Below are positions 2,403-29,482 of a stretch of DNA of 36,677 bases, piece after piece. How positions within the stretch are numbered: position 1 is the first letter of the stretch; every line of letters begins with the position of its first letter. Location of the stretch: positions 1 through 36,677 of the forward strand of contig JAFPVW010000168.1 in NCBI GenBank assembly GCA_017395215.1, written 5' to 3'. This DNA is from Prevotella sp. Lineage in GTDB: Bacteria; Bacteroidota; Bacteroidia; Bacteroidales; Bacteroidaceae. The notes below the pieces were generated by a model. The model saw nothing but the letters and a program-made list of their open reading frames with translations, was not told where the DNA came from and ran no database searches. The position numbers were made by a program, and so were the translations under genes.

Positions 2403-3824
2403 TTAGTAAATATCATCATAGCCAGGGTTCTGGACCAGACCAGGCTGGAGGGTGATGTCCATAACGTTAATGGGCCAGGTGTACATATACTTGCGAGTCC
2501 AGTACTTCATACCCTGGTCGGCCACCCACCATTCGGGCCGTCCGTTGCGTTTCAGCTCAAACCAGCGGTCGCCGTTCTCTAAGTAGAACTCCTTGCGGCG
2601 CTCGTTGAGAATGGCCTGAATGAGCGGCGTCAAGGGCTTGCCCGTGGCATCCTCCTTGACAAGTGCTGTCGGGTCGACGGGCGGCAGGGTCAGATTGTTG
2701 TACATATACATGCCCGTGATGCGGTTACGGCGGAACTGGTTCAGTTCAACGAGCGCACTGTCGGGCATATTCAGATGATAGGCACATTCCATCGAGATGA
2801 AAGCCATCTCAGCCGAACGCATGCCCGTGAAAATAAGCTTGCGGTTGGTGCGCTTGCGGTTGAAGAAGAGGTTGTTCTTACGACGGATGTCGTTGGTACC
2901 CTCAGCAAAGAGACTGACATATCTGGCACTCAGCGGCCTGCGCTCCAGCGAACTCATGCCACCGGTGATTCCCAACGGCTGATAGGCAATGCGGTCGGCC
3001 ATGAACAGGCGGTTGCCCACCAGCCCATACTGCGTGCTCATCATCTTTACGTAGTCGTCGCCCGACAGCAGGGGATGCTTGTCGAGCACCAGCCGGGCCT
3101 CGTCGCGGGCTTCCCGCCAGCGTCCGCACCAGTGGTAAAGGCGGGCCAGATAGCCGTGAAGCACGTCATGGTTGAAGAGGTACATCTCGTTCTGTATGTC
3201 GCAGTCCAAGGCCTTCCTGAGGTCGCTCTCCGCCTGGTCGATGGTCTCCTGAACAGTAGAGCGTAACGGCTTGGCCTCCATGTCGAACTCGGTGACAATG
3301 GGCACGCCCAGCTGGGCATCGTCGGCCAAGGGTGGCGCACAGAACTCGCGCAGCAGCTGATAGTAGCACACGCCCCGGATGGCATAGGCCGTGCCGACAA
3401 TGTCCTGTCCGTCGCGGCTGTCGCGGTCTTCCTGATATTCCCCTAAGATAATGTTGCAGTTGCGAATCGTCTCGTAGAGGCTTCTGTATCTTCCCTGCGC
3501 GCCGTCAATGAGAGCGCCTGCATATTTGGCCATGTGGTCGTTGTCGGCACCTAAGTTGGCCTCCATATTATCGGAGATCTCTTCGAAGTCCATTGACTCT
3601 TGGAAACAGCCAACAACATGGCCTAAGACACCGATGTCAATCTGATAGCACAAATCGTGTACCAAGGCCGAGAAGTCTTCGGTTGACTTGGGGATGGTGC
3701 GGTCGTAGGGTTTGATGTCGAGATAGTCTTCACAGGAGCAGAAGACCCCCACCCAGCCTCCCCCTACAAGGGGGAGGAGGAGATACCATGCTCGCAGGAT
3801 TTTTTTGCAGATATTCTTTATCAT
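2403..3824 (-). CDS. SusD/RagB family substrate-binding lipoprotein
   Basis: 473 residues, slightly short for the family. After the lipobox (FCSC, lipid Cys near residue 31) comes the typical SusD opening CEDYLDIKPYDR, then TPR-like helices (GTAYAIRGVCYYQLLREF) and the C-terminal hallmark NERRKEFYLENGDRWFELKR. SusD proteins are surface lipoproteins that cap a SusC transporter and bind the substrate. The adjacent protease suggests peptides rather than glycans here (inference). Oddity: the hydrophobic core of the signal peptide (LLLPLVGGGWVGV) is encoded by a copy of the palindromic repeat family seen elsewhere in the window, bases 3744-3780. A 69-base spacer holding another copy separates it from susC. 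Confidence 0.93.
   Translation of the reverse strand: MIKNICKKILRAWYLLLPLVGGGWVGVFCSCEDYLDIKPYDRTIPKSTEDFSALVHDLCYQIDIGVLGHVVGCFQESMDFEEISDNMEANLGADNDHMAKYAGALIDGAQGRYRSLYETIRNCNIILGEYQEDRDSRDGQDIVGTAYAIRGVCYYQLLREFCAPPLADDAQLGVPIVTEFDMEAKPLRSTVQETIDQAESDLRKALDCDIQNEMYLFNHDVLHGYLARLYHWCGRWREARDEARLVLDKHPLLSGDDYVKMMSTQYGLVGNRLFMADRIAYQPLGITGGMSSLERRPLSARYVSLFAEGTNDIRRKNNLFFNRKRTNRKLIFTGMRSAEMAFISMECAYHLNMPDSALVELNQFRRNRITGMYMYNNLTLPPVDPTALVKEDATGKPLTPLIQAILNERRKEFYLENGDRWFELKRNGRPEWWVADQGMKYWTRKYMYTWPINVMDITLQPGLVQNPGYDDIY
3744..3780 (-). repeat. Family A palindrome forming the SusD signal-peptide core
   Basis: Read on the minus strand this is the stem CCCCCT-TGTA-GGGGG followed by the G-rich tail GAGGCTGGGTGGGGG, the same layout as the copies at 3858, 11226-11408, 11638, 21583, 21681 and 23014. 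It is in frame within susD and supplies residues of about 16-27 of the signal peptide. Confidence 0.8.
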
Positions 3825-3857
3825 AAAATGCTGTTTTTATTCTTATCATTCTAATTA

Positions 3858-3893
3858 CTCCCCTCCCTCACAGGGAGGGGTTGGGGGTGGGTC
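3858..3893 (+). repeat. Family A palindrome in the susC-susD spacer
   Basis: An 8-bp perfect stem (CCCCTCCC, loop TCACA, GGGAGGGG) is followed by the tail TTGGGGGTGGGTC. It occupies about half of the 69-base gap and ends directly at the susC stop codon. In the transcript it could form a hairpin that changes the ratio of susC to susD message. That is inference; the repeat identity itself is clear from the sequence. Confidence 0.8.
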
Positions 3894-6800
3894 TTAAAAT
3901 CCAACATTAACTCCAAATGAAAAACTGCGGCTCATAGGATAGACAGCTCCCGGCGACTCAGGGTTCATGCCCTTGTAGGCGGTAATGACCCAAAGGTTGT
4001 TGGCCGTGAAACTGACACTCAGGTTGGTAGCATAGATGCGGTGAACCCAGCTGTCGGGCAGGCTGTAGGTCATCGACAGCGACGAAATCTTCCAGTAGGA
4101 GGCATTCTCGTAGTAGGCGCCGTCGTTAACCTTCGAATAGCTAATCTGCTGACGGTCCAGATTGAGCGCTGCTCCGTGGGCATCAATCAGCCGGGGATAG
4201 CCGTCGGTCACGGGGTTGTCAGACGTCCAGTGATAGGCGGCATCCTTCACCACATTGTTATGTGCGGTATAGATGTCGTAGCGTGTATTGGCCACATAGT
4301 TGTTAGTGGGGCGCATGATGCTGCTATAGGTACTGTGCGGACGGATGTAGTTCGTCTTCTTGGCACCTAACGAGAACGTCGAGTTGGCACTGAGCGACAG
4401 GCGTTTCCACGACACGCTGGTAGAGACTCCACCCGTCCAGGGATAGCTGCCCATGCCGATGTAGACCAGATAGTTCTCCCAGTTGTAGGGGTCTGACTCG
4501 TCAGCGTCGCTTCGTTTCTGATAGGTGTAGAATCCCGTCGCGGGGTCAATACCCTCCAATTTGCCGCTGAAGACCATGCCAAGGGGATAGCCCACATGGA
4601 TGTCGCCGTAGATGCCGCCCGTGGGCGACTCATACTTGGTCAGCACATTCTGGTTGTAGGCAATGTTGCCGTTCAGGCTCCAGCGCCAGTCCTTGGTCTT
4701 CAGGGGAGTGCCGCTGAGCATCACTTCAAAGCCTTGGTTCACCTGCTCACTGGTGTTATAGCTCTGTTCTGTGAATCCGGTAGTGGAAGGAACCAAAACC
4801 CGAGTCACCAAATCGTAACCCTCGCGGCGATAGAAGGACAAGTTGACGTTGAGCCGGTTCTTGAGGAAGCCCATATCGAGGCTGCCGTTGTAGTCGCGGG
4901 TTCGCTCCCAGCGCAGATGAGGGTTCGGGGGTGAACTGACATGCCCCATACGGTAAGCCTGGGTGTCGCTGTTGCGGAACGTTGACGAGTAGCCCATGAT
5001 AAGCACCGGATAGACGCTCTTGTTGACACCACCGGTGACACCGGTTGATAGTCGGACGGTGGCATGGCTGACGATGTGCTTGATGTTTTGGAGCCACCGC
5101 TCCTCGTCCATGTTCCAGGCCAAGCCGAAGCTCCACGTCATGTTGAACTGCTCCTTGGAGCCAAAGTTGTTGGAGCCGTCGGAGCGGGCAGTGACATTGG
5201 CCACGTAGCGGTTCATCAGCACGTAGTCCAAGGCACCATAGAACGAGGCCATGGCGTTCTCAATGCGGCTTTGCTGGCTCAGTGAGTTGACTATCATCTG
5301 GTAGCTCTGCATATCCGTCTCACTGAAGGTGCCTGAGGGACCTACGACTAACAGGGGCAGCGAGTGGTTGCCGGTGACGGGGTCGTAGCCATAGACCTTG
5401 CGGGAGACTGACTTGGCGTAGCTGTTGCTGACCTCGGTACCTACCAAGGCACTGATGCGATGAATGTCATTGAAGGTCTGGCCGTAGTTCAGCTGGGCAC
5501 GCAGCTGCCAGTTGCGGTTGGAGGTGCTGGACTGGGTCATACTGCCGTAGATGCGCTGTGAGAGCATGTTGGAGCCTTCGAAAGGCCGGTCCTGCCAGGC
5601 GGTATAGGTGTCCTGGTTCACCTCGTTATCAGAAGCATCAGTCGTATAGCTGTAGGAGGCCAGTCCGTAGAGACGGAAGTGCTCGCCTAAGCGCCAGGTG
5701 ATGTCACCGCGCAGGTTAACGCCTGAGCTGGTTGCCACCTGCTCGGTGCCGTCAATCTCGCGCATGACGTTGACACCGTTGGGCGGCAGGACAGCCATGA
5801 CGTCGCCGTTGACCTTAGGCAGCGAAAAGAAAGTCTCGTCGCCCCGGTAGGAACCGTCCTCGTTGTAGGGTTTCTCATATGGATTAGCAAAATAAGCATA
5901 GTCAAACATGTTCAGCCCAAAGCCTGTTGCAGCCGCCAGACTCTTCAGATAGCTATACGAGACATCGAAGTTCAGCGAGACGGCCTTCGAGGGCGTGGCC
6001 GAAATCTTCGACATGAAGTTGGCGCCATCGGAGGAAGATTTCTTGACAATACCCTTGTTAGTAGACATGCCTCCTGAGACGTAGTAGGTCATTTTATCCG
6101 TACCGCCAGAGAGGCTGACGCTCTGTGTCGTGCTGACGGTGTTGCGGAACAACTCCTGGAACCAGTCGGTATTGGTCTGCTTCAGTTCCTCGATGTAGGC
6201 ATCCTGCTCGGCGGTGCTCATGCCCGCAAACCTACCGTAGCCCGAGCGTATCTGGCCGATGATGCCGATGCGGGGGAACCACGCGCCGCTCTCAAAGCCC
6301 TTCTTCGAGAACTCGTCCCAGATGCTCTGCTCGTAGGCCAGCTTCTCTTCGGTGTTCATCAGGTTGTGGTCACGTGAGGGAGCCGTCTGCACGGTGACGT
6401 TGCCGCTATAGCTGACGTGGATGTTACCAGCCTGGCCTTTTTTCGTCGTGATGACGATAACACCCGACTGCGCCTGCGAGCCGTAGATGGCAGCAGCGGC
6501 AGCGTCCTTCAGCACGGTGATACTCTCAATGTTCTGCGGAGCAATGCCTGCCACGCCGTTGGCATAGAGGGTTGAGAAGTCGCCCGAACGGATATACATG
6601 TTGCCCATCGCGGGGATGTTCTTCTGCAAGGGTACGCCGTCGACCACCCACAGCGGCTCGTTGTTGCCGGTGATGGAGGCCGTACCACGGATGCGAATCT
6701 TGGCCGACTCACCGGGGCGGCCGCTGACAGCCTGCACGTTGACGCCCGCCAGCTTGCCCTGCATGAGCATGTCGACGTTGGCCAGTGGCTGGTCCTTCAG

Positions 6801-7214
6801 TTCCTTGTCGGTGAGGATGCCCACGGAGCCGGTCGACTTGCGGATGTCGGTCTGCGAGTAGCCCGTGACGACCACCTGGTCGATGGTGGCGGTCTCGTTC
6901 TCCAAGGCGATATCGCCCGTCATGGCACGGTTGACGCGGATGGTCTTTGACTTCATGCCGATGTAGCTGATGGTGAGCGTGGCACCCTTGGCAGCCCAGA
7001 GCGACGCCTTGCCGTTGACGTCGCTGACGACGCCTAACTGCTTGTCGGAGGCCTTGATGGTGGCACCGGGCAGCGGTTCGCCGTTCTCGTCGACGATGGT
7101 GACGTCGATCTTCACCTGGGCGTCGCCGGCAGGGTTCTGGGCGAATAGCTGTCCCGTCGGAGAAGCGATGGGGACGGCGGCCGTCAGCAGGAAGAGTAGC
7201 AGCAGTTTCTTCAT
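3894..7214 (-). CDS. SusC/RagA family TonB-linked outer-membrane transporter
   Basis: 1106 residues. The signal peptide is residues 1-25. A carboxypeptidase-regulatory-like domain follows at about 35-110 (VDENGEPLPGATI, ISYIGMKSK), then the TonB-box region (IDQVVVTGYS), the plug with the SusC hallmarks LAGVNVQ, IRIRGTAS, LWVVDGVPLQ and ITVLKDAAAAAIYGSQAQSGVI, and a large beta-barrel ending in Phe (SFGVNVGF). The protein imports a substrate captured by SusD, powered by TonB-ExbBD. It starts three bases after the stop of the protease gene, so protease and transporter are co-transcribed. The substrate cannot be read from the sequence; the protease neighbour favours peptides. Confidence 0.95.
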   Translation of the reverse strand: MKKLLLLFLLTAAVPIASPTGQLFAQNPAGDAQVKIDVTIVDENGEPLPGATIKASDKQLGVVSDVNGKASLWAAKGATLTISYIGMKSKTIRVNRAMTGDIALENETATIDQVVVTGYSQTDIRKSTGSVGILTDKELKDQPLANVDMLMQGKLAGVNVQAVSGRPGESAKIRIRGTASITGNNEPLWVVDGVPLQKNIPAMGNMYIRSGDFSTLYANGVAGIAPQNIESITVLKDAAAAAIYGSQAQSGVIVITTKKGQAGNIHVSYSGNVTVQTAPSRDHNLMNTEEKLAYEQSIWDEFSKKGFESGAWFPRIGIIGQIRSGYGRFAGMSTAEQDAYIEELKQTNTDWFQELFRNTVSTTQSVSLSGGTDKMTYYVSGGMSTNKGIVKKSSSDGANFMSKISATPSKAVSLNFDVSYSYLKSLAAATGFGLNMFDYAYFANPYEKPYNEDGSYRGDETFFSLPKVNGDVMAVLPPNGVNVMREIDGTEQVATSSGVNLRGDITWRLGEHFRLYGLASYSYTTDASDNEVNQDTYTAWQDRPFEGSNMLSQRIYGSMTQSSTSNRNWQLRAQLNYGQTFNDIHRISALVGTEVSNSYAKSVSRKVYGYDPVTGNHSLPLLVVGPSGTFSETDMQSYQMIVNSLSQQSRIENAMASFYGALDYVLMNRYVANVTARSDGSNNFGSKEQFNMTWSFGLAWNMDEERWLQNIKHIVSHATVRLSTGVTGGVNKSVYPVLIMGYSSTFRNSDTQAYRMGHVSSPPNPHLRWERTRDYNGSLDMGFLKNRLNVNLSFYRREGYDLVTRVLVPSTTGFTEQSYNTSEQVNQGFEVMLSGTPLKTKDWRWSLNGNIAYNQNVLTKYESPTGGIYGDIHVGYPLGMVFSGKLEGIDPATGFYTYQKRSDADESDPYNWENYLVYIGMGSYPWTGGVSTSVSWKRLSLSANSTFSLGAKKTNYIRPHSTYSSIMRPTNNYVANTRYDIYTAHNNVVKDAAYHWTSDNPVTDGYPRLIDAHGAALNLDRQQISYSKVNDGAYYENASYWKISSLSMTYSLPDSWVHRIYATNLSVSFTANNLWVITAYKGMNPESPGAVYPMSRSFSFGVNVGF

Positions 7215-7217
7215 ATA

Positions 7218-10200
7218 TTACTGATGTTTTACGATGTCAATGTCGAACGTCTCGGGTCGTACGAGGTGGTCGAGGAAATAGTAGCGGATGGCGTTCTGGT
7301 AGTAGGGACCGTAGAGGCCGTGCCCCTGTTCGGGGAACAGCATCATGTCGAAGCGCTTGCCGGCCTTCTGCAGAGCGTCGGCCATGCGGACGGTAGAGGC
7401 CACAGGTACGTTCTCGTCGACCTCGCCGGTCATCAGCAGCAGGCGGCCTTTCAGGTTTCCGGCCAGCTCCATAGCCGTCGGAATCTCGCGGCCATAGCCT
7501 TGGTAGGTCTCGGCCCACCACTGGATGTAGGCGTGGTTGTCGTAGTTGCCCGATGCAGCCACGCCGACCTTGTAGAAGTCGGGATAGGTGAGCATGGCGG
7601 TGACGGTCTCGAAACCGCCGCCGGAGTGGCCATAGATGCCCACGCGTGTGGTGTCGATGAAGCTGTACTGGCGGGCCAGCGCCTCGATGGTGTGGCGATC
7701 GTCGGCCAGAGGGTAGTCGCGCAGGTTGCCGTAGCCGTAGCAGTAGAAGTCGCGGTCGCGAAGGGGCGACGAGCCTCGGGGCTGCACGTTGATGACGACG
7801 AAGCCCAGCTCGGCCAGCGACTGGTTGCCGTTGTCGTCGACGGTGAAGCGGCGGGGTATCTGGTCGTCCTGCGGACCGGGATAGACGTTGGTGATGATGG
7901 GGAGTTTCTGGTGATGGGTGCGCTCGAGCTTGCTCGCTTTGCTTGCAAAGAAGGGTGAAGGGTGAAGGGAGGACAGACTGTCACGGAGTGTACTCGGCAG
8001 ATACATCACGCCGTAGAGGTCGGTCACGCCGTCGGCGGCCTTGACGCTGACGAGCGTGGGCTTCACCCAACCGGCTTTCAGATAGGCGGCCTCATCGGAG
8101 CGGAAGAACTCGTAGTGCTTCTTGGGCGAGTCGAGACTGACGACGTTGTAGACGGGCGGCATGTCCATGCGCGAGTACTGGTCGATGGCCCAGTGTCCGT
8201 CGCGCGACAGCTGCAGCGAGTGCTCGCCGTTGCCATAGCTGAGCAACTGCTGGCCACGCCCGTTAAGACCTACCTTATAATAATAGGTATAGTGCGGGTC
8301 GCCGTCCTCCTGGCCGTGGCCGATGAAGATAATCTGGCGCTGAAGGGTATCGATCTTCTCAATACGCCCGGCCACTAAGCGGTCGCCCTGGGTGACTCGG
8401 TTCAGCAGACGGCCGGTCTGGCCGTCGTAGAGGTAGTAGTTGCCGCGACCCGTGCGGTCGCTCCACCAGAGCACCTGGCGACCGTGGTCGAGCAGATGGT
8501 AGTGGAACATATTGACATTGACGTGAGGCCGGCACACCTCGCTTATGACGACGCTGACGTCGCCCGTCTGGGGGTTGATGCGGCAGAGCTCCAGCGTGTC
8601 GACGGAGCGGCTGCGGCGCACGAAGTACTGGCTGTCGCCCTCGCGGTCGAAGTCGAGCTGGATATGGTAGTCGGCATTAGGGGCGATGGGCAGCAGGCGG
8701 CCCTCCTGGGTGTCGGCATTGTACCAGTAGAGGCGGAAGCGGCGTATGGCGTTGCCACCGGGCAGAGGCATCTTCTTCTGCTCCAGCCGGGCGGGCTGCT
8801 CCATCTGGTGGACGAGGTTCAGATAGCCCACGGCTGTGTCGTCGTAGACCATGCAGAAGTAGGAGTGGCCGCGCCAGAAACCCGAGGGCTGGCGCTCGCT
8901 GAGTTCGTCCTTGGCACTGCGGCCGCAGTAGGAGGCGTAGTCGCAGCCGTCGGTGGTCAGCTGCGTGACAGTGCCCGTCTGGTTGTTGCGGACGTGCAGG
9001 TTGTAACGGTCGCCGAGCATGGTGAAGGCCGAGTCGGCGGTGTGGTTCGAGGAGCCATAGCCGAAGCCCCTGCGGCCGCGGTCGTCTTCCTTGACGGGAT
9101 ATTCCTTCAGGTAGGCATCGACGACGGCCTGGTCGTAGGCGGCAGTCTTGCCCGTGCGGGCATCTACCAAATATTTCTTGCCCTCGTGCCTATAGGTGAC
9201 GAAGGGCGTGCCCTCAACAAAACTGGGCGAGGGCGACAGGTGGTAGGTATTGACATTCTTCTCGCTGACGGCCTCGGCACGGTACCAGCCCTCAGCCGAC
9301 AGCAGCCGCTCGACAGCCTTCAGCATGTCGACCGTACCGCCACTGATGCTGCCCTTGGCGTCGTCCATGGGTCGGACAGTCTCCATCAGCAGGTCCTTGA
9401 TCTGGGCGGCCTTCAGGTAGGGGAAGTAGCTGCGCAGCAGGGCGGCAATAGCCGTGACGACGGGAGCCGAGAGCGACGTGCCCTGCGAGAGGCTGTACTT
9501 GTCGCCGGGGAAGACGGAGGCCATATACGTGCCTGGGGCGAAGAGATGGACGGTCTTGCAGCCGTAGTTCGACATCTTGGCACAATGGCCCTGTTCGTCG
9601 CTGGCGCCGATGCGGAGGAAGTTGGGCAGAAAACGGCCCATGCGGTCGACACCCGACGGATAAGAGGGAATGGTGTCGAGGTTACAGCTGTTGTTGCCGG
9701 CGGCACAAATCACCAGCACGTCGCGGTCGGCAGCATAGCGGATGGCGTCGTTCACCATGCGCTCCTGCGGCGAGTAGTACTTGCCGAGGCTGATGTTGAT
9801 GACGCGGGCACCGTTGTCGACGGCGTAGCGGATGCTCGAGGCGATGTCCTTGTCGTACTCGTCGCCATCGGGACTGGCGCGGACTATCATCAGGCGGGCC
9901 ACGTCGGGGGCAATACCGTCGAAGCGGCGGTCCTGCCGGGCGTCACCGGCAATGATGCCGGCCACGAACGTGCCGTGCTCACAGCCCTCGACGGTCAGCG
10001 TCGGGTTGCCGTAGAAGCGGTCGTCGGCATCGTCCATGTTGTCGCCCATCAGCAGGCGCTTGTCCTGGTCATGCTCAATGCCGTAAATATTCTTCTCCAT
10101 CTCGGCCAGACGGGTCAGCGACAGCGAGTCGAGGTTGTCCTTCGACCTGTTGGCTATCTCGTAGTAGCGCAGATAGTTGTCGATATTGGCCTTCTTGCGC

Positions 10201-10676: not shown

Positions 10677-10700
10677 TTCTCTTGTTTCTTTTTTCAAGCT

Positions 10701-10732
10701 GCAAAGGTACGAAATATCCAGCAAACAGCAAA
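10701..10732 (-). promoter_or_regulatory. Bacteroidota-type promoter of the protease-SusCD operon
   Basis: On the minus strand the -7 box TACCTTTGC (10701-10709) and a -33 box TTTG (10729-10732) are separated by exactly 19 bases, matching the Bacteroidota consensus TTTG-N19-TAnnTTTG. It lies 24 bases upstream of the chosen protease start, which supports that start over the longer reading. Confidence 0.85.
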
Positions 10733-10748
10733 ACAAAACACAAAATAA

Positions 10749-12338
10749 TCATTCACCCTGCACTTGTGCGGCAGGCCAGTTGACGAGGAACAGCCGGTCA
10801 GTGGCACGGGTGAAGGCGGTGTAGAGCCAGTGCAGATAGTCGGGGCCGAGCATGTCGTCGGTCATGTAGCCCTGGTCGATGTAGACGTGGCTCCACTGGC
10901 CGCCCTGTGCCTTGTGGCAGGTGACGGCGTAGGCGAACTTCACCTGCAGGGCGTTGTAGTAGCGGTCCTCTTTCAGCTTTTTCAGGCGGTCAGCCTTGAA
11001 TGGCACGTCGGCATAATCCTCCATCACGCGGTTGTAGAGCTGCTGTTGCTGCTCGCGGGTGAGCGACGGCGATTCGGAGGTGAGCGTATCAAGCAGGACC
11101 ATCGCCGTGAGCTCGTAGTCATCGAAGTCGGGGAACGACAGCGTCACCTCGGCAAAACGAAAACCGTGCTGCTCGTGAACATTTCGGATGCGCTGGACGA
11201 CAGCGATGTCACCGTTGGCAATGAAAGCCCCCTCCAAACCTCCCCCTGTAGGGGAGGCTTCCTTTCCGCCCCATCCCTCCAAACCTCCCCCCGAAGGGGA
11301 GGTTTCATTTCCCCCTCTTCGGGAGGGGGTCAGGGGGAGGCTTTCACCTCTACGGGAGGGGGCCAGGGGGAGGCTTTCACCTTTACGGGAGGGGGCCAGG
11401 GGGAGGCTATAGTTATTCTTCACAATCATCAGGCGGTCGCCCCGGCAGAGTTCCTCATCGCGGTCGAGGACGGTCGAGCGGATGCCCTGATTGTAGATGT
11501 TGGCACGCTTGTTCGAGCGGGTGATGACGATGGTGTCGTCGATGCCCGTCCGGCTATAGCTGGTGGCAAGCGACTCTATCAGCTCGTCGCCGGGCACCAC
11601 CTTGACGTCGGAGAAGCCGGCAAGGCTGATTCGGGGAGCTCCCACCCAGCCACCCCCCGCAGGGGACGCTTCCTCACGGAAAAGGGTTCTGATTCTCGTC
11701 GCATTAAAAAGAATACCCGACTCCTGCGACTGGCGGAGTACCTCGCTGAGATTAGCCTCGCTGACCGTCATGCCATAGCCCCTAAGCACCGACGCCGACA
11801 GTGCCGGGCTCTCTGTCTCGCCCACCGGCGGCAGCTGGGCGGGATCGCCAATGAGCAGCATGCGGCAATTATTGTCTAAGCCATAGACGAACTCCACGAG
11901 ATCGTCAAGCAAGCATCCTGAGCCAAAAACCGACTCGCCCAGTCCCTGGTTGGCAATCATCGACGCCTCGTCGACGATGAAGAGCGTATCGCGCGCGGTA
12001 TTGAAGTTCAAGCTGAAACCGCCCTCCAACGACTTCTGGCGGTAGATGCGGCGGTGGATGGTGTAGGCGGCACTGCCGGCATAGAGCGAAAATACCTTTG
12101 CAGCGCGGCCTGTCGGTGCCAGCAGCACCAGTTTCTGGCCGAGAGCCGTCAAGGCCCGCACGATGGCAGCTGCCAGTGTCGTCTTTCCCGTTCCCGCCGA
12201 CCCACGGAGAATCATTACCGCCCGGCTGTCAGCATCGACCAGGAAGTCGGCAAAAACGCCGATAGCCCGTTCTTGCTCCGCGGTAGGGGGGAATCCAAGC
12301 GACTGCCTGATGCGATATTTTATTTCATCATTGACCAT
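10749..12338 (-). CDS. RecD-like ATP-dependent DNA helicase (superfamily 1) with repeat-derived insertions
   Basis: 529 residues. Walker A is residues 46-53 (GSAGTGKT), Walker B 121-126 (IVDEAS), motif III 163-172 (IGDPAQLPPV), and the C-terminal UvrD-like motifs are VTCHKAQGGQW and YTAFTRATDRLFLV. This is the Bacteroidota AAA-family/UvrD-C helicase related to RecD2; DNA unwinding in repair is expected, but the exact role is unknown. Two low-complexity inserts interrupt it: about 223-237 (ASPAGGGWVGAP) and 311-371, the latter with three 11-residue units (SLPLAPSRKGE-like) and two SPSGGGLEG-like units. These are translated palindromic repeats; the enzyme core reads through on both sides, so the gene is probably functional. 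It is transcribed divergently from the DUF3822-rsmD pair. Confidence 0.9.
   Translation of the reverse strand: MVNDEIKYRIRQSLGFPPTAEQERAIGVFADFLVDADSRAVMILRGSAGTGKTTLAAAIVRALTALGQKLVLLAPTGRAAKVFSLYAGSAAYTIHRRIYRQKSLEGGFSLNFNTARDTLFIVDEASMIANQGLGESVFGSGCLLDDLVEFVYGLDNNCRMLLIGDPAQLPPVGETESPALSASVLRGYGMTVSEANLSEVLRQSQESGILFNATRIRTLFREEASPAGGGWVGAPRISLAGFSDVKVVPGDELIESLATSYSRTGIDDTIVITRSNKRANIYNQGIRSTVLDRDEELCRGDRLMIVKNNYSLPLAPSRKGESLPLAPSRRGESLPLTPSRRGGNETSPSGGGLEGWGGKEASPTGGGLEGAFIANGDIAVVQRIRNVHEQHGFRFAEVTLSFPDFDDYELTAMVLLDTLTSESPSLTREQQQQLYNRVMEDYADVPFKADRLKKLKEDRYYNALQVKFAYAVTCHKAQGGQWSHVYIDQGYMTDDMLGPDYLHWLYTAFTRATDRLFLVNWPAAQVQGE
11226..11408. repeat. Five family A palindromes clustered in the helicase gene
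   Basis: Two copies read on the minus strand (about 11226-11260 and 11271-11305, 45-base period). Three read on the plus strand (from 11318, 11351 and 11384, exact 33-base period). Each has a short C/G stem with loops such as TGTA, CGAA or TTCG and a G-rich tail AGGGGGAGGCT. Both periods are multiples of three, so the helicase frame is kept throughout. Confidence 0.85.
11638..11673 (-). repeat. Single family A palindrome in the helicase gene
   Basis: On the minus strand the copy reads as a C-rich arm, loop, GGGGG arm and the tail TGGCTGGGTGGGAGC, close to the susD copy at 3744. It encodes the insert SPAGGGWVGAP at about residues 225-235, in frame. The stem is partly decayed, which suggests an older insertion. 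Confidence 0.7.
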
Positions 12339-12355
12339 TATTCAGATTTTTTTCG

Positions 12356-12364
12356 TACCTTTGC
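12356..12364 (+). promoter_or_regulatory. -7 box of the DUF3822-rsmD promoter
   Basis: TACCTTTGC lies 26 bases upstream of the ATG at 12391. No good TTTG is found at the expected -33 spacing; the nearest is a weak TTG near 12331. It faces the minus-strand box at 12368-12376 only three bases away, so each start site should fall in or next to the other promoter's -7 box. Confidence 0.75.
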
Positions 12365-12367
12365 GGC

Positions 12368-12376
12368 GCAAAGTTA
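12368..12376 (-). promoter_or_regulatory. -7 box of the helicase promoter
   Basis: Read on the minus strand this is TAACTTTGC, 29 bases upstream of the helicase ATG at 12338. A TTTG on the minus strand at 12401-12404 gives a 24-base spacing, longer than the usual 19-20. It is arranged head-on with the plus-strand box at 12356-12364. Confidence 0.65.
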
Positions 12377-12390
12377 CGAAAAATAATTGA

Positions 12391-18209: not shown

Positions 18210-18215
18210 TAGCGT

Positions 18216-19493
18216 TTACTTGTTGCGCCAGCCCTTGGGGAATGCGGTCTGGATGAGTCCGGCGGCCTTGCGCTCGTTGACGTCCTGCATGTCCTCGGCA
18301 CTGTTGTTGGTGTCCTTGTAGAAGGTCTTGTCGCCCACCTTGATTTCCTTGCGGATGCAGAGTTCCTGGCGGTGGCAGCCGTTGACGAGGAACTTGCCGC
18401 GGTCCACGGTCTCGGGCACCACGCGGGTCTTCACGTCCTGAGGCACATCGCTGGTCTGGATACCGTCGATGATGTTGTCGGTCTCAACGGCCAGGATGTG
18501 GATGTCGATGTCACCCTCGGGCGTGGTCTCAGTGGCCTCTACGTGGGTCTTCGACAGCGTGGTGTGGCTGTTGACGAAGGCATCGATGGTCGACTGCTGG
18601 CCATTCTCTAAGCGGAACATCACGGGCGACACATAGCCACGGGGCTGGAAGAAGAAGCCGTAGGAGTCGCCATTCTCGCTGATGAGCACGTTGGGCACGT
18701 CGGGGTTGTCCACGTCGTTGGCATCGGGACCGTAGTACACCTCGAAGTCGGCACCGCTCAGGTCGACGGCGTGGTCGTAGGCTATTTCGCCATTCACCAC
18801 CTCAGAGTGGTTGATGGCGGTGAAGGCTATCACCAGTTTCTCGCCGGGGTTCACGGCGTGCTCCTTGCCCGAACCGGGAATGGTGATGAAGCCGCCGATG
18901 GGCACCTGCGTGGGATAGTAGCTGTCGTACCACAGCTGCTTGTTCTGCCAGGAGAGGTGCATCGTCACGCCGATGCTCACGCCGTCGGCATAGAGCACGT
19001 CCTCCGTGGGGTTGAACAGCACGATGTACTGGTCGGGGTGCATCATGCGGCCCGAGTTGGTCTCGCCGTTGAAGAAGACCTCGCTGAAGATGAAGTCGCG
19101 GCCCAGGGCACTGGCGGGCAGCGAGTTGACGTAGCCCTCGATGAGCTGGCCCTCGGTGTTGACGTTCACATTCTCCATGCGGAGCGAGATGACGACGTCC
19201 TCGTTCTGGGCGTTCTTCAGGCTCTTCTCAATCGCCACATTATAGACGCCCATGGGCAGCGATGCCGTCACCGAACCATTGGCGTCGAGGGGGAACGAAC
19301 GAGTGTCCTGGTTACGTACTTCGGTGAACAGTACGGGCGTTCCGGCCAGCGTGGCCACATCGAGCGCACCAGCCACCTTCGGGATGGCGTTGAACGTCAC
19401 GTTGATGTTCTTCTCGGCCTCGTCGTCGGAGCACGAAGCCAGCAGCACTGGGCAGACAAGCGCTGCCAGTGCAATTCTAAGGAATTGCTTCAT
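18216..19493 (-). CDS. DUF4876 family lipoprotein
   Basis: 425 residues. A lipoprotein signal peptide ends at Cys20 (LLASCSDDE), and the aspartates after the cysteine are compatible with surface export. An N-terminal Ig-like or CarboxypepD-like strand set at about 30-115 (TLAGTPVLFTEVRNQDTRSF; SLPMGVYNVAIEK) is followed by a lamin-tail-like region (DFIFSEVFFNGETN; DQYIVLFNPTEDVLYADGVSI). This layout matches DUF4876 proteins of Bacteroidota, found in operons with a TonB receptor and a DUF6850 barrel exactly as here. A substrate-capture role comparable to SusD is plausible but unproven. It lies 19 bases downstream of the HMA gene. Confidence 0.85.
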   Translation of the reverse strand: MKQFLRIALAALVCPVLLASCSDDEAEKNINVTFNAIPKVAGALDVATLAGTPVLFTEVRNQDTRSFPLDANGSVTASLPMGVYNVAIEKSLKNAQNEDVVISLRMENVNVNTEGQLIEGYVNSLPASALGRDFIFSEVFFNGETNSGRMMHPDQYIVLFNPTEDVLYADGVSIGVTMHLSWQNKQLWYDSYYPTQVPIGGFITIPGSGKEHAVNPGEKLVIAFTAINHSEVVNGEIAYDHAVDLSGADFEVYYGPDANDVDNPDVPNVLISENGDSYGFFFQPRGYVSPVMFRLENGQQSTIDAFVNSHTTLSKTHVEATETTPEGDIDIHILAVETDNIIDGIQTSDVPQDVKTRVVPETVDRGKFLVNGCHRQELCIRKEIKVGDKTFYKDTNNSAEDMQDVNERKAAGLIQTAFPKGWRNK

Positions 19494-19512
19494 TCTATGT
19501 GTTAATTAAGTG

Positions 19513-19881
19513 TTACTCCTGGGTCTTCTTCTCGTGCTTGCCGCAGCCCTTGCCGCCGCACTCGTGCTTCTCTTCCTTGCCTTCGTGCTTCTTGCAGCCG
19601 CCCTCGCAGCACGACTTGGCCACCTCGGCCTCGAACTTGGCGTCAGCCAGAGCCTTCTGCAGAGCCTCGACGCTGGTTTTCTCGGCATCGAAGCTCACGC
19701 TGACGGCGTGGCTCTCTAAGTCCACCTTCACCTCGCTGACAGCCTCGTTGGCCTTCAGTGCCTTCTCTACGCGGTTGGCGCAGTTCTGGCAGTGCATGTT
19801 GGCTACCTTGAAATTAACTTTCTCTGCCAGCACGTTCATGGCGAACAGTGCGGCCATCATCATCATTACAATCTTTTTCAT
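19513..19881 (-). CDS. Secreted HMA-domain metal-binding protein with Cys/His-rich tail
   Basis: 122 residues from the ATG at 19881; upstream in-frame residues belong to the promoter region. The signal peptide is residues 1-19 (MMMMAALFAMNVLA-EK). The HMA fold (about 20-88) carries the metal motif MHCQNC (M-x-C-x-x-C), and a Cys/His/Lys-rich tail at 90-122 contains CCEGGC and CGGKGCGKH. HMA domains bind Cu(I), Zn(II) or similar soft metals; this one acts outside the cytoplasm. The metallothionein-like tail suggests a sink or relay with several binding sites. It is first in an operon with a TonB receptor, which points to metal acquisition or metal protection. The metal cannot be told from the sequence. 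Confidence 0.9.
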   Translation of the reverse strand: MKKIVMMMMAALFAMNVLAEKVNFKVANMHCQNCANRVEKALKANEAVSEVKVDLESHAVSVSFDAEKTSVEALQKALADAKFEAEVAKSCCEGGCKKHEGKEEKHECGGKGCGKHEKKTQE

Positions 19882-19916
19882 TTTCCTTTGTTGTTTTGTT
19901 ACGTTGTTTTGACGGT

Positions 19917-19948
19917 GCAAAGGTACAATGATTTTGACGGCCGTGCAA
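19917..19948 (-). promoter_or_regulatory. Promoter of the HMA-DUF4876-TonB operon
   Basis: On the minus strand, -7 box TACCTTTGC (19917-19925), with TTGC at 19945-19948 where TTTG would stand at exactly 19 bases spacing. It is 35 bases upstream of the chosen HMA start. A nearby imperfect palindrome (TTGACGG ... at 19933-19946, GACGGCCGT core) could be a regulator site, but no family match is claimed. Confidence 0.75.
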
Positions 19949-20025
19949 TACCTAAAACTAAGGTTTTTCAACAATTGGCAACAAAGGCAGGCTAACGAAA
20001 CGCACTAATCACTAGTAGGTAGGCG

Positions 20026-21446
20026 TTACATCAGTGGAGCCAGCAGCCGGATAAGGCTTTCAAACAGACGAACCATGAACTTCGGATTCATACGCTCGGG
20101 CAGTGAGGACAACTGTACCGACTGGGCTTCGTCGTCGAGGAACACCTGCTTCATCTGCAGGGCCGTCTTCCCGCCGTAGAAGAAGGCATTGGCCTCGAAG
20201 TTATTCTCAAACGAACGGAAGTCGACGTTCGTTGACCCGCAGGTCGAGATGCTGTCGTCGCACACCATCAGTTTCGAGTGCAGGAACCCGCCTTCATAGA
20301 GACTTACCTTCACGCCGGCCTCCTCAGCTTCGCGCAGATAGCTGCGCCCAGCCCAGTCGACAAACCAAGAATCGTTCTTCTTAGGTACCAACAGTCGTAC
20401 ATCGACGCCCGCTACGGCTACCGTCTTCAGGGCGAACAGCACGGGATCGGTAGGCAGAAAGTAGGGCGTTTCAATGAACACATACTTTCTGGCTCCCATG
20501 ATGATGCGTACAAAGCCCTGCATAATCTCCGGGTAAGGCACCACGGGACTGCTGGTGACGACCTGGAGGAGGGGTCTTGGTGAAGGGTGAAGGGTGAAGG
20601 GTTTACGTTAGGATAGTACTTGCGGTCATTGAGCAGGGTGCGGTCGACGAAATACCAGTCGATGAGGAAGGCGCGCTGCATGGCATAGACACCTGTTCCC
20701 GTCACGCGCACCATTGTGTCGCGCCATTCGTCGGAGACATAGCGCAGGGCGATGTTCATGCCACCGATGAAGCCTGTCCGTCCGTCGACAACCATTAACT
20801 TTCGGTGGTTACGGTAGTTCACCTTGCTGGTGAACGAAGGGAAGCGCACGGGCAGGAACGGAGCCACTTCGATGCCTTCCTCGCGCATTCGCTCGAAGAA
20901 GCGGTGGGGCACCTGCCAGCAACCTACGTCATCGTAGATAAGCCTCACTTCCACACCTTGGCGGGCTTTCGCGATTAGGGCGTCGGCCACGAGACGCCCC
21001 AGTGCATCATCCTCCATGATGTATATGTCGATGTGGATATGGCTGCTGGCCTGGGCGATGGTTCTCATCAGGTCAGGAAAGAACTGGTAGCCGTCGGTAT
21101 AGACCTCCACCTCGTCGGTCTGGAAAGGCAGTGACAGGCTCTGGCCTGCAAACAGGTCGATGACGGGTTTGTGCTCCTCGGGCAACCGCAGGTTCTGCTG
21201 CTCCACGAATCCCAGCATCGACCGCTTCGACAGTTCGTCGAGCTGGCGCTGGTTGACGAGCCGTTCTTTGCGGGTGTTCCTGCCGAAGAACAGATAGAGG
21301 ATGATGCCGGCCACAGGTACGAACCAAATCACCAGTGTCCATGCCATCGTCTTGGCGGGCTGGCGGTTGTCCATCACAACGTGGGTCACTGTCAGTACGA
21401 CGATGATGTAGTAGATGATAGCCAGTATGATGTTCAGTTCGTGCAT
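20026..21446 (-). pseudogene. cls: Cardiolipin synthase (phospholipase D family), frameshifted at a heptamer repeat
   Basis: Two overlapping frames together make one cardiolipin synthase. The upstream part (21446 to about 20600) has two N-terminal membrane helices (IILAIIYYIIVVLTV; LVIWFVPVAGIILYLFFG) and the first HKD motif HRKLMVVD. The downstream part (to stop 20026) has FIETPYFLP, the second motif HSKLMVCD and the family-typical ending FMVRLFESLIRLLAPLM. The reading frame breaks exactly at three copies of GGGTGAA (20579-20602). Unmodified, the product stops at 20427 without motif two and would be inactive. Adding one heptamer or removing two restores the frame. The ATG at 21446 is preferred; a GTG at 21452 overlapping the queE stop is possible. 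Phase variation, a fixed pseudogene or a sequencing error all remain open. Confidence 0.88.
20579..20602. repeat. Heptamer array (GGTGAAG x3) at the cls frameshift
   Basis: Three perfect seven-base units plus a partial fourth. The flanking protein sequence is consistent with cardiolipin synthase in one frame before the array and another after it. Unit length 7 means each gain or loss of a unit moves the frame by one base. Confidence 0.9.
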
Positions 21447-21448
21447 CG

Positions 21449-22051
21449 TCACTTGAAGTTGGCAAGCTTATGGATTTGCAGCGACAGCCGCCACTGCGGA
21501 TGCTCCTTGATATAGTCTATACATTGTTGTATGATACGCGTGTTATGCTCCGCGTCGCCCGTGTCGCAGGGCTGGAGGTAGAGCCACCCCCCTTCCCCCT
21601 CCCGGAGGAGGGGGAGCCAAGCGGACTGTTGCTCCACGTCTTCAGGTGAAGTGAAAATCACTTTTAGTTCATCGGGAGTTCTCCCCCTCCTCCGGGAGGG
21701 GGTTGGGGGGAGGCTTTTTGGCGACACCGTCAGCCAGTCGAGGTTCTGGGGGGCAGGGCGCGTGCCGTTGCTCTCCATTGCCACCTCGAAGCCGTGCTGG
21801 TGGAGTAGGTCGATGAAAGCCTCGTCCACCTGCAACGTCGGTTCACCGCCAGTGAGCACCACGAAGCGGGCGGGATATTGTGCTATTTCCGCCACAATCT
21901 CGTCTTCGGTCATCTCGCGGAACGTGTCGAACTCCGTGTCGCAGAACGGACAACGCAGGTTGCAGCCCGCAAAGCGGACGAACACCGCCGCCCGTCCCGT
22001 GTTGTGACCCTCACCCTGCAGCGAGTAGAAGATGTCGTTAATCCTTCTCAT
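21449..22051 (-). CDS. queE: 7-carboxy-7-deazaguanine synthase QueE (radical SAM)
   Basis: 200 residues from the ATG at 22051, which gives the family opening MRRINDIFYSLQGEG. The radical-SAM cluster motif is Cys30, Cys34, Cys37 (CNLRCPFC), followed by VLTGGEPTLQ (64-73) and ESNGTRP (93-99). QueE converts 6-carboxytetrahydropterin to 7-carboxy-7-deazaguanine in queuosine precursor synthesis, using a 4Fe-4S cluster and SAM. Two repeat-derived inserts, about residues 113-124 (SLPPTPSRRRGR) and 145-156 (WLPLLREGEGGW), lie in frame between the core motif region and the C-terminal strand, and the protein continues normally (LYLQPCDTGD). It overlaps queD by 14 bases and is translationally coupled to it. 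Confidence 0.94.
   Translation of the reverse strand: MRRINDIFYSLQGEGHNTGRAAVFVRFAGCNLRCPFCDTEFDTFREMTEDEIVAEIAQYPARFVVLTGGEPTLQVDEAFIDLLHQHGFEVAMESNGTRPAPQNLDWLTVSPKSLPPTPSRRRGRTPDELKVIFTSPEDVEQQSAWLPLLREGEGGWLYLQPCDTGDAEHNTRIIQQCIDYIKEHPQWRLSLQIHKLANFK
21583..21618. repeat. Family A palindrome in queE (second insert)
   Basis: CCCCCTCC-CGGA-GGAGGGGG stem with a C-rich flank on the left, which is the G-rich tail read on the minus strand. It encodes the in-frame insert at QueE residues of about 145-156. Confidence 0.8.
21681..21715 (+). repeat. Family A palindrome in queE (first insert)
   Basis: CCCCCTCC-TCC-GGGAGGGGG stem followed by the tail TTGGGGGGAGGCT. Orientation is opposite to the copy at 21583, so the two face each other about 60 bases apart and could also pair with one another. 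It encodes QueE residues of about 113-124. Confidence 0.85.
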
Positions 22052-22370
22052 ACCAGGCGATGTTCCCCTCACACTCTTGCACCATAGCCTTATAGCAGTA
22101 GGGCACGCGCTCCACCACCCAGCGGGCGAGGTTCTCGGCCGTGGGGTTGAAGGGCAGCACGTCGTTGAGCACCTGGTGGTCGAGCGGTTTCTTGACGAGC
22201 CGTTTGATTTCGCTGAAGTCGATGACCATGCCGTTGCGGTCAAGCTGCTCGGAGCGGCAGTAGACGACGATGATCCAGTTGTGGCCGTGTACGCGCGTAC
22301 ACTTGCTCTCGTAGTCGAGGTCGAGCCTGTGGCAGGCCGAAATCTCTATTTTCTTCTGAACGTAGTACAT
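22038..22370 (-). CDS. queD: 6-carboxytetrahydropterin synthase QueD
   Basis: 110 residues, normal for the bacterial family. Zinc ligands are His14 (SACHRL), His28 and His30 (VHGHNW), and the catalytic Cys24 stands four residues before the HGH motif (C-x3-HGH). LDHQVLND and FNPTAENLARW are the family's usual C-terminal landmarks. The enzyme turns dihydroneopterin triphosphate into 6-carboxytetrahydropterin, the substrate of QueE, so queD and queE encode consecutive steps of the queuosine precursor pathway. It lies 37 bases downstream of dnaG and overlaps queE by 14 bases. No riboswitch-like element is visible in the short gap. Confidence 0.95.
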   Translation of the reverse strand: MYYVQKKIEISACHRLDLDYESKCTRVHGHNWIIVVYCRSEQLDRNGMVIDFSEIKRLVKKPLDHQVLNDVLPFNPTAENLARWVVERVPYCYKAMVQECEGNIAWYEKD

Positions 22371-22407
22371 CCTATATCCTTTTTTTACCTTTTTATTCTT
22401 TATACCT

Positions 22408-24351
22408 TTACATCATCACGTCGCTGCCGAGACGGCGGGCAAGGAGGTCGCGTAGCTGCTGGGTATCCTTGTATTCCTCCATCAGTTGCATGATGCGCTC
22501 CATGTCGCCAGTGGCCTGGCGCATGGCCATCTGGATTTCCTTCAGCCGCTGGCCGACGATGTCCATACGGAAGTCCATAATCAAATGGACGATACGCTGA
22601 CGCAGTGAACCCTCGCGGGGTTTCAGCACGAAACGTCCGCCGAGTTGGTGGCGGTCGACGGCCAGCCGGGCCGCCGTCTGACTCACCTCGATGTCGGGGT
22701 GGTTCATGAAGTAGCTCTCGGCCTTGAAGCCCTCGTCGCCGCTGTGGGCCACGGCCTCAGCCAGCATCTGGTTGTAGAGCGGATTCGAGAAGGTAAGCCC
22801 ATCTTGTCCCAGGTCGTAGGCGATGTACTGCGCCACGTTGAAGTTGGTGGTGCTGCCATCGTCCATTTCCACGTCGGCGTAGATAATCTCCTCGCCGTGG
22901 CGGACGACCTCGCGCATGAGGAGGTGTTCGATAGACGCACTTCCTGTCCCTCCCGAAGGAAGAGTAGTCTGGGGACTCTGCTGTGGATTCTCATGGGAAG
23001 TGGCATCCTCGTTCCCCTCCTTTTGGGAGGGGTTAGGGGTGGGCTTACTATCCCTGATAAATTTATTCATCGACGAAATCAGCGTCTGCTCCTTCAGTCC
23101 GAGGCGCGAGGCCAGGTCGCTGAGGTAGGTGGAGCGGAGGATGGCATCGGGAATGACCGATATGCTTTTGACGATGCCGCTGATGGCCTCGGAGCGCTTC
23201 ACGGGGTCGCTGACGCCCTCAACGGTGAGGTGCGTCTTGAAGCCGATGAAGTCCTGCTGGTTCTCTTCGATATAGCGCTTCAGCTCGTCGGTGGAGTGCT
23301 TGCGTGCAAAGGAGTCGGGGTCGTCGCCGTCGGGCAGCAGCAGCACCTTCACGTTCATGCCCTCCTCGAGCAGCATGTCGGTGCCGCGCATGGCGGCGTG
23401 GATGCCCGCCTCGTCGCCGTCGTAGAGCAGCGTGATGTTGTTGGTAAACCGCCGCAGCATCTTGATCTGGTAGATGCTGAGGGCGGTGCCCGAGTTGGCC
23501 ACCACGTTCTCGATGCCTGCCTGGTGCATGGCGATGACGTCGGTATAGCCCTCGACCATGAAGACGCGGTCCTCCTTCACAATGGCCTTCTTGGCCTGGA
23601 ATATGCCGTAGAGCTCGCGCTCCTTATGGTAGATGTCGGAGTCGGGTGAGTTGACGTACTTCTGCGCCACGCCCTTTGTCCGCGAATCGAGCACGCGGCC
23701 GCCAAAGGCCACCACCTTGCCCGAGACGTTCAGCCAAGGGAAGATGGCACGACCCGAGTAGCGGTCGTACCCACCCCGCTCATTCTCCAAGCAGAGACCT
23801 GTCTTCACGAGGAACTCCTTGTTGTAGCCCTTGGCCGTCGCTGCTGTGTAGAGCGCGTCGCGCTTCTGCGGCGAGTAGCCCAGCTGGAACTTCTCGATAA
23901 TGTCGTCGCGGATGCCTCGGCTGCGGAAGTACTGCTTGCCGATGGCTATGCCGTCGGGGTCGTTCTTCAGCACGCTGTGGAACCAGTCCTTCGCCCACTC
24001 GTTGACGATGAACATCGACTCGCGCTCGTTCTGTTGCTGCCGCTCCTCGTCGGTCAGCTCCTTCTCTACAATCTCGATGTTATACTTCTTGGCCAGCCAG
24101 CGCAGCGCCTCGGGGTAGGTTATCTGCTCGTGCTCCATCAGGAACCCGGCGGGCGTGCCGCCCTTGCCGCAGACGAAGCAGTGGCAGATGTTTTTGGCCG
24201 GACTGACCATGAACGACGGGTTGCGGTCGTCGTGGAACGGACACAGACCCTTGTAGTTCACGCCGCTCTTGCGGAGCGTCACGAACTCACTGACGACGTC
24301 GACAATCTGCGCCGCGTCGATGATTTTGTCTACTGTCGCGCGGTCAATCAT
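22408..24351 (-). CDS. dnaG: DNA primase DnaG
   Basis: 647 residues from the ATG at 24351 (MIDRATVDKII); an upstream ATG at 24396 is rejected because it would read through the promoter. The zinc finger has Cys37, His40, Cys58 and Cys61 (CPFH ... CFVC). The primase core includes GYSPQKRDAL and GRAIFPWLN, and the Toprim metal site has Glu267 (VEGYTDV) and Asp311/Asp313 (LYDGDEAG). The enzyme makes RNA primers for replication. Residues of about 435-471 are a low-complexity linker (SKPTPNPSQKEG ... TTLPSGGTGS) encoded by one clear and one decayed copy of the family A palindrome, sitting exactly between the polymerase core and the C-terminal helicase-binding domain. Confidence 0.96.
   Translation of the reverse strand: MIDRATVDKIIDAAQIVDVVSEFVTLRKSGVNYKGLCPFHDDRNPSFMVSPAKNICHCFVCGKGGTPAGFLMEHEQITYPEALRWLAKKYNIEIVEKELTDEERQQQNERESMFIVNEWAKDWFHSVLKNDPDGIAIGKQYFRSRGIRDDIIEKFQLGYSPQKRDALYTAATAKGYNKEFLVKTGLCLENERGGYDRYSGRAIFPWLNVSGKVVAFGGRVLDSRTKGVAQKYVNSPDSDIYHKERELYGIFQAKKAIVKEDRVFMVEGYTDVIAMHQAGIENVVANSGTALSIYQIKMLRRFTNNITLLYDGDEAGIHAAMRGTDMLLEEGMNVKVLLLPDGDDPDSFARKHSTDELKRYIEENQQDFIGFKTHLTVEGVSDPVKRSEAISGIVKSISVIPDAILRSTYLSDLASRLGLKEQTLISSMNKFIRDSKPTPNPSQKEGNEDATSHENPQQSPQTTLPSGGTGSASIEHLLMREVVRHGEEIIYADVEMDDGSTTNFNVAQYIAYDLGQDGLTFSNPLYNQMLAEAVAHSGDEGFKAESYFMNHPDIEVSQTAARLAVDRHQLGGRFVLKPREGSLRQRIVHLIMDFRMDIVGQRLKEIQMAMRQATGDMERIMQLMEEYKDTQQLRDLLARRLGSDVMM
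22945..22971. repeat. Decayed family A copy in the dnaG linker
   Basis: GTCCCTCCCGAAGGAAG keeps the stem and the GAA-type loop, but the tail is degenerate. It encodes TLPSGGTGS in DnaG. Its decay relative to the copy at 23014 suggests it is older. Confidence 0.5.
23014..23045 (+). repeat. Family A palindrome in the dnaG linker
   Basis: CCCCTCC-TTTT-GGGAGGGG followed by the tail TTAGGGGTGGGCT, closely like the copy at 3858. It is in frame and encodes PTPNPSQKEG of DnaG. Confidence 0.85.
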
Positions 24352-24364
24352 CCTCTTTTTTCGT

Positions 24365-24397
24365 GCAAAGATAAAAAATATTCTGGAGAACGCCAAA
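24365..24397 (-). promoter_or_regulatory. dnaG promoter
   Basis: On the minus strand, -7 box TATCTTTGC (24365-24373) and -33 TTTG (24394-24397), spacing 20 bases, 14 bases upstream of the dnaG ATG. This is the likely promoter for dnaG-queD-queE-cls. Confidence 0.75.
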
Positions 24398-29367: not shown

Positions 29368-29482
29368 ATAATTGTCATTTGCACTTTATATCCTACACTC
29401 CCGACACTTCCTACACCTAAAAAAGTTCAACAAGTGCAGGAAGTGTCGGAAGTGTAGGATGTTTCCTGCGATTGACAATTAT
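29368..29482. repeat. 115-base composite palindrome
   Basis: Inner arms 29391-29416 and 29434-29459 match at 24 of 26 positions around a 17-base loop. Outer arms ATAATTGTCA (29368-29377) and TGACAATTAT (29473-29482) match perfectly. Both inner mismatches become G-U pairs in minus-strand RNA. The inner arms consist of 9-base units (AAGTGTAGG-like). It is not placed as a terminator for any neighbouring gene. Confidence 0.8.

Follow-up and report, generated by a model that had tools for sequence, protein, structure and literature searches.

In the current work, the 36,677-nucleotide stretch of contig JAFPVW010000168.1 from a Prevotella sp., a rumen-type gut bacterium (the whole of this stretch being referred to as the window), was analysed with respect to a short, G-rich hairpin repeat, designated family A, of which well over 100 copies are present in the genome. 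Many copies of this repeat are inserted in frame in loops and linkers of unrelated genes, mostly as directed inverted pairs, the G-rich tails of which point outward; conserved host codons stand between the two arms in five of the pairs tested, some relatives carry a single arm, and the same slot can be found occupied by a replacement repeat type. Directed pairs straddling host sequence, together with slots shared between repeats, are what is new relative to the known repetitive extragenic palindromes (REPs) and Rickettsia palindromic elements (RPEs). A preliminary description of the window had recognised the in-frame palindromic repeats, and missed the tail-outward pairing, the host codons between the arms and the slots held in common with an unrelated repeat.

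A directed repeat dispersed through the genome

The source genome is a 3.6 Mb draft in 211 contigs, 85% complete and with an estimated contamination of 5.87%. Eleven family A copies are located between positions 3743 and 23046 of the window, in agreement with the minimum of eleven reported in the preliminary description, and their occurrence exceeds that in Markov controls: the pattern CTCCC-N0-9-GGGAG gave 12 both-strand matches (6 sites), as compared to means of 0.38-1.06 and a maximum of 6 in three sets of 100 Markov sequences, and a longer hairpin-plus-tail motif gave 5 matches (4 copies) as compared to 0 in all 300 such sequences. Most copies are, as also reported, within genes, in frame and in both orientations, ten of the 11 overlapping long open reading frames (ORFs), namely those for a RecD-like helicase (6 copies), QueE (2), a SusD-like protein (1) and DnaG (1), with the remaining copy placed between the SusC and SusD genes. 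The host genes and repeat copies of the window are as follows.

2403..3824, minus strand: susD-like gene, host (SusD by Pfam)
3743..3777, minus strand: left arm of the SusD pair, coding for WYLLLPLVGGGWVGV in the signal-peptide region of the SusD-like protein (motif scans; SusD Pfam)
3857..3896, plus strand: right arm of the SusD pair, between the SusC stop and the SusD start (motif scans)
10749..12338, minus strand: RecD-like helicase gene, host (Pfam)
11229..11257, minus strand: family A copy in the RecD-like slot (slot empty or otherwise filled in orthologs)
11270..11305, minus strand: family A copy in the same RecD-like slot (motif scan, ortholog alignment)
11309..11342, plus strand: family A copy in the same RecD-like slot, opposite orientation (motif scan, ortholog alignment)
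11343..11375, plus strand: family A tandem copy in the same RecD-like slot (motif scan, ortholog alignment)
11376..11408, plus strand: family A tandem copy in the same RecD-like slot (motif scan, ortholog alignment)
11636..11670, minus strand: single, degenerate copy (EEASPAGGGWVG) marking a second site within the RecD-like gene (motif scan, ortholog alignment)
21449..22051, minus strand: queE, host (fold match)
21580..21616, minus strand: arm in QueE slot 2, queE being on the minus strand (motif scans, ortholog alignment)
21617..21679, minus strand: core of the host protein QueE (DELKVIF...), enclosed by the two arms (conservation among the orthologs compared; strand 127-132 in the model)
21680..21715, plus strand: arm in QueE slot 1 (motif scans, ortholog alignment)
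22408..24396, minus strand: dnaG, host (Pfam)
22936..22970, minus strand: decayed arm in the DnaG linker, partner of the 23010 copy and located on its hairpin side (profile score 11.4)
23010..23046, plus strand: arm in the DnaG linker (L043 has the same insert, L062 a similar one)

Across the whole genome a strict motif returned 98 matches, against 7 for a reversed control, and the profile search proposed in the preliminary description, performed with a covariance model made from 33 copies, returned at least 148 family A matches at E≤0.001, this being a lower bound since scoring covered 150 of the 1118 candidates. The aligned copies define a unit of approximately 45 bp in which a frequent GTAA/GTAT tag precedes a hairpin (C-rich arm, short loop and G-rich arm) that continues into a G-rich tail; strong copies have the form GGGAGGGGNNGGGGGTGGG. 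The tag GTA[AT] is located within the 14 nt that precede the stem in 49 of 109 profile matches, as compared to 6 of 105 control windows; GTAG is present in only 2 of the 109. Kinds that differ by loop and tail are labelled alpha, beta, gamma and delta in the present analysis. Four runs of at least three G's, separated by short loops, occur in 78/109 profile matches, but the profile was made from such copies, and in 2/11 window copies; strong copies with four such runs could fold as a G-quadruplex. Single arms were found to fold no better than shuffled sequences (z -1.07 to 0.06, five arms), and an Rfam scan of the window gave no family at its threshold. The distribution of family A is patchy, the strict motif being present in 54/201 genomes and in 13/30 genera of the taxonomic family (source genome counted), and in several of those genomes the reversed control is equally common, since it also picks up a sister form of the repeat.

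Inverted pairs with outward tails

The plan of a hairpin followed by a G-rich tail, as originally described, holds for these copies, but that of a lone palindrome does not: the unit is directed and comes in inverted pairs. When family A neighbours within 300 bp of each other were considered in this genome (n=47; 39-289 bp from start to start), 45 were found in the -+ (tail-outward) arrangement, one as -- and one as ++, and none as +-. In 283 loci of other genomes, which contained 91 matches, 32 neighbours comprised 28 in the -+, 3 in the ++, 1 in the -- and 0 in the +- arrangement; L060 and L101 being one genome, there are 27 distinct tail-outward pairs in other genomes. DnaG, reported as a host, is indeed one, and the copy in its linker has a decayed partner near 22936-22970.

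Host codons between the arms

Ortholog comparisons involved 67 of 80 QueE loci plus the window (L048, which failed the motif split, was left out of the slot-matching test), readable orthologs of DapF (23/29, with 6 in the wrong frame), PyrG (28/29), the RecD-like helicase (27/29) and alanine racemase (28/29), and alignments of 28/29 GltB loci and of 45/61 matching DnaG ORFs. Orthologs of QueE, the RecD-like helicase, DapF, PyrG, GltB and alanine racemase mostly lack the inserts at the same places, in keeping with the proposal that the repeats had invaded housekeeping genes; nor were the QueE segments found at these sites in distant genera, the QueE proteins of Segatella, Leyella, Hallella, Bacteroides and Phocaeicola being free of inserts. 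The closest orthologs with empty sites have diverged too far for target-site duplications to be recognised.

Conserved host sequence makes up the stretch between the arms in five pairs compared with orthologs (QueE, DapF, PyrG and two in GltB). The QueE arms flank a conserved DELKV strand that is also present in insert-free relatives, the 50-residue stretch between the DapF arms is conserved in 23/23 readable orthologs and the PyrG core in 28/28, and the GltB pairs at 6593 and 8093 likewise enclose conserved host sequence (28 and 27 rows compared, respectively). The left arm of DapF is present in 2/23 orthologs (L183 and L189) and the right arm in 0/23, with a profile scan returning exactly one family A copy at each of these two loci, and GltB pair 8093 is represented in L246 by its left arm only; such one-armed relatives indicate that arms can arrive one after the other. 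Replacement is seen as well: PyrG of L226 carries both arms, the left one being of another kind, and the arm kinds of GltB pair 8093 differ among this genome, L243 and L244.

Two further candidates for one-armed relatives were rejected, namely GltB pair 4702 in L244, for which a profile scan showed a partner farther away, and L256, which had been seen in the peptide only and where the profile scan finds no copy. Separately, GltB contains one more single arm of family A, at apparently one shared place in this genome and two others (L242 3494, L243 4313 and L244 3524), and a second gltB, 84% identical, is present in the same draft genome (G000 contig C130), representing either a paralogue or contamination.

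Slots shared with an unrelated repeat

In other species, an unrelated repeat of purine-rich heptads occupies the loops of QueE, RecD-like helicase, DnaG and PyrG that here carry family A. Both QueE slots are filled in 37/67 sequences, mostly by purine heptads, family A filling 7, and the RecD-like slot, the DnaG linker and the right PyrG site hold family A, a purine heptad or nothing depending on the species (QueE repeat types and the contents of the RecD-like and DnaG slots were counted by eye). An inverted match between the two QueE slots with a score of at least 14 was obtained for 19/37 sequences, as compared to 1/37 for a direct match and 9.8% across species. Among 68 inverted pairs not belonging to family A, the left arm is clearly purine-rich in 15, pyrimidine-rich in 1 and neither in 52, so that the second repeat type may follow the direction rule too, most pairs being uninformative. 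Heptanucleotide repeats are also known from the Nostoc tRNA-Leu intron, where inverted purine heptads are placed on both sides of a stem; those are intron RNA, whereas the purine heptads of QueE, though similar in layout, fill protein-coding slots.

A cardiolipin-synthase-like gene (window 20026-21452) occupies two overlapping frames, its split being close to an array of GGTGAAG heptads (~20575-20600) in which unit changes would shift the reading frame, since seven is not a multiple of three. In L026 (13410-15251) a third repeat type (TPDSKTIEAPSGAVGGA) is inserted twice in PyrG, at amino acids 134-166 and 295-323, a similar peptide being present in L217.

Host genes and probable tolerance of the inserts

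Twenty-six of the 38 pairs of this genome lie wholly within open frames of 250 codons or more, although some of these frames may be spurious. The arms are free of stop codons, reading for instance KTHPQPLPVREGSxY and xxTPLPHREGQGVGL. Hosts named by Pfam comprise SusD, DnaG, the RecD-like helicase, DapF, PyrG, GltB, an alanine racemase fused to a Mur ligase domain, a family 2 glycosidase, an ABC transporter, a TRCF/Mfd-like helicase, an RND pump and FeoAB; QueE is supported by its best fold match, and L014 had no Pfam match, so that the name UvrA is not used for it. In the QueE model the two inserts have an average predicted local distance difference test (pLDDT) score of ~56 and 62 and flank an intact strand, and their appearance as low-confidence loops around an intact core would explain their tolerance. 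The insert peptides are most likely tolerated rather than useful.

SusD, correctly named as a host, requires an added correction: the repeat codes for part of the signal peptide. In two SusD-type genes (window 3743-3824; L032 2084-2231) it specifies the hydrophobic part of a lipoprotein signal peptide, L032 representing a second SusD-type start with a repeat pair.

How the pairs may arise

On balance we lean, with modest confidence, towards the explanation that REP-like elements land in tolerant loops and that the first copy guides the second. Family A would then be a REP-like, non-autonomous repeat of ~45 bp, recognised as a folded single strand by a trans-acting, nuclease-like enzyme that inserts copies; a resident copy would direct the next insertion, inverted, to its own hairpin side, and those inserts that stay open and fall in loops would be retained by selection. 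At some places arm, spacer and arm would move jointly, as a REP doublet. A broader proposal, offered tentatively and on the whole doubtful, is that of a pair-building insertion process in which a second repeat is placed mirror-wise on the hairpin side of the first with the host codons left intact, and which would be used by heptads and G-rich hairpins alike in the same loops; it would act on position and strand geometry rather than on a single element, by means of an enzyme other than a known RAYT (REP-associated tyrosine transposase).

Several points weigh against guided insertion of separate arms. A looser scan of 41 stretches of this genome gave 38 tail-outward, 2 tail-inward and 3 same-direction arrangements. 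Of 33 copies without a strict partner, nine face, on the hairpin side, an inverted partner that is weaker or farther away (three of the nine being extra array copies), four belong to the two tail-inward cases and five are within 110 nt of a contig end, with ~15/109 copies being solitary and away from contig ends. The loci are not independent, having been picked around queE and around hosts of this genome, and the third GltB pair (4702), for which no alignment was obtained, stands outside the comparison. No enzyme was linked to family A in this analysis, and the guiding step is one that we infer rather than observe directly. The within-species total of QueE arm matches reached 619, as compared to a maximum of 423 in 5000 permutations, and this likeness of arms within species fits local copying or co-replacement. 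Finally, the arm, spacer and arm of alanine racemase (51 residues) are jointly missing in 27/28 readable orthologs and identical in L273, and copies 5179-5293 and 6662-6776 of L045 have one common 71-nt spacer, both of which fit movement as a whole unit.

The last two cases are what would be expected of an ordinary REP doublet (REPIN-like) that moves in one piece with its own spacer, the enclosed host cores being rare accidents. Such an account, which we hold to be unlikely, also draws on the alikeness of the gamma-type spacers of L004 and L010 and on the commonness of doublets among published REPs, as given in excerpts of PMC3733652; it is at odds with the five pairs that enclose conserved host codons, with the one-armed relatives, and with the finding of only 7 short matches (11-21 nt, E≤0.05) among the 38 spacers of this genome. 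Movement of a doublet with its spacer, as in alanine racemase and L045, is unlike what is seen in QueE, DapF, PyrG and two GltB pairs, and taken together these cases suggest two modes, one of separate arms around host codons and one of doublets with their own spacer.

Local template switching, by which one arm would be copied during replication as the inverse of the other so that stems grow in place, would account for the matching QueE arms within species and for L061 and L081, whose irregular arms (60 and 53 nt) match almost perfectly. We regard it as quite improbable: within-pair likeness of family A arms in this genome is 0.804, against 0.798 for other pairs of the same kind (p 0.60; 23/38 pairs), so that arms look drawn from a pool rather than copied from each other, and the excess seen when all 38 pairs are taken together (0.767 within and 0.703 between) arises because kinds match within pairs. 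Kinds are moreover mixed in some pairs, such as delta/alpha in GltB, and dispersal through the genome with one consensus is beyond local copying.

Mobilisation as canonical REPs by resident Y1 (RAYT-type) transposases has a similarly low probability. The genome does encode two Y1_Tnp (Y1 transposase) genes (L001 1235-2349 and L002 1069-1997), and the hairpin with its 5' tag and the inverted doublets are REP-like, but each of these genes is flanked by its own other palindrome (TCACACGGGGACAGTCCCC... and AATTGGGGTCGGTTCCGG), GTAG is all but missing as a tag, and family A was found near Y1-transposase genes at 0/31 loci of the genus sample, some other inverted repeat spanning the gene at 21 of the 31; this count covers 31 loci among the matches listed, with flanks of at most 1.5 kb, and the source draft is 85% complete. 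A Y1 transposase as the cognate enzyme is accordingly unsupported.

Selection for a long RNA or DNA stem, under which lone copies are harmful and pairs survive by self-folding, is consistent with the folding of the QueE pair as a single long stem (-90.1 kcal/mol, z -8.3). Tail-inward pairs would fold equally, yet they are rare or absent, so that selection alone does not explain why they are missing; there is also no excess complementarity within pairs, and we attach only a slight probability to this explanation. That the segments represent an assembly artefact or ancestral coding sequence of low complexity, for which the draft state and the estimated contamination of the genome might speak, is scarcely credible given the empty sites in orthologs and the recurrence of the same insert across independent assemblies (DnaG in the window and L043; the right arm of PyrG in this genome and L226).

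Relation to known repeats

Excerpts of PMC3733652 describe GTAG/CGTC REPs as short tagged palindromes in many copies that form inverted doublets 20-100 bp apart, with some in frame inside genes, DNA repair genes among them, and with spacers that tend to vary in dimers with the tag inside. Family A is like them in each being a short tagged palindrome of many copies with inverted doublets and in-frame intragenic cases. As in GTAG REPs, its palindrome measures 20-50 nt and occurs in many copies, but GTAG is not the tag at the 5' foot (2/109, compared to 49/109 for GTA[AT]) and no flanking RAYT gene was found (0/31 Y1_Tnp loci, a partial sample). CGTC REPs are recognised by a CGTC tag, an 8-9 bp stem and a CCA tail; the aligned family A copies are without the CGTC tag and have a G-rich tail. 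The long G-rich tail sets family A apart from these REPs, and host-codon spacers do not figure in the portion of the REP account in PMC3733652 considered here. A REPIN/BIME (bacterial interspersed mosaic element) doublet consists of two inverted REPs around a linker (excerpt of PMC8266576); two close inverted units are common to both systems, but the family A linker is often host coding sequence and no cognate RAYT was found.

RPEs are in-frame inserts of ~150 bp, present singly in unrelated housekeeping genes (excerpt of PMC10969869), and RPE-4 and RPE-6 have been equated with CGTC REPs (PMC3733652). Compared by description only, in-frame gene insertion is common to RPEs and family A, the latter consisting of ~45 bp arms in directed pairs. 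The likeness to RPEs drawn in the preliminary description is therefore apt, and in-frame GTAG/CGTC REPs, as far as the excerpts of PMC3733652 go, are closer still. In-frame palindromes having been published for both, the kind of element is already known. No account of family A in Prevotella or Bacteroidales was found in searches of an open-access library, absence not being proven thereby, and the preliminary description likewise named no equally clear account in Bacteroidales; PMC8040213, in the part consulted, lists unnamed palindromic candidates in Bacteroidetes.

The paired placement points to a process beyond the known in-frame repeats, and the strict tail-outward rule together with one-armed relatives makes the order of events in the spread of a mobile repeat testable. 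The inserts in QueE, DnaG, PyrG, GltB, DapF and alanine racemase amount to natural insertion scans of growth-essential enzymes, and, in rumen metagenomes, alignments, trees and gene calling can be led astray by slots whose filling differs between species.

Other repeats of the window

Three further repeats were observed in the window: a tandem array of AGTCCGTTGAGTCCGTGGC-like units (233-365); a gene with two similar halves (396-1640), the repeat being of 300 nt with 93% identity; and an intergenic 49-nt inverted repeat (29368-29482) with 17 nt between its arms, made of another short repeat.

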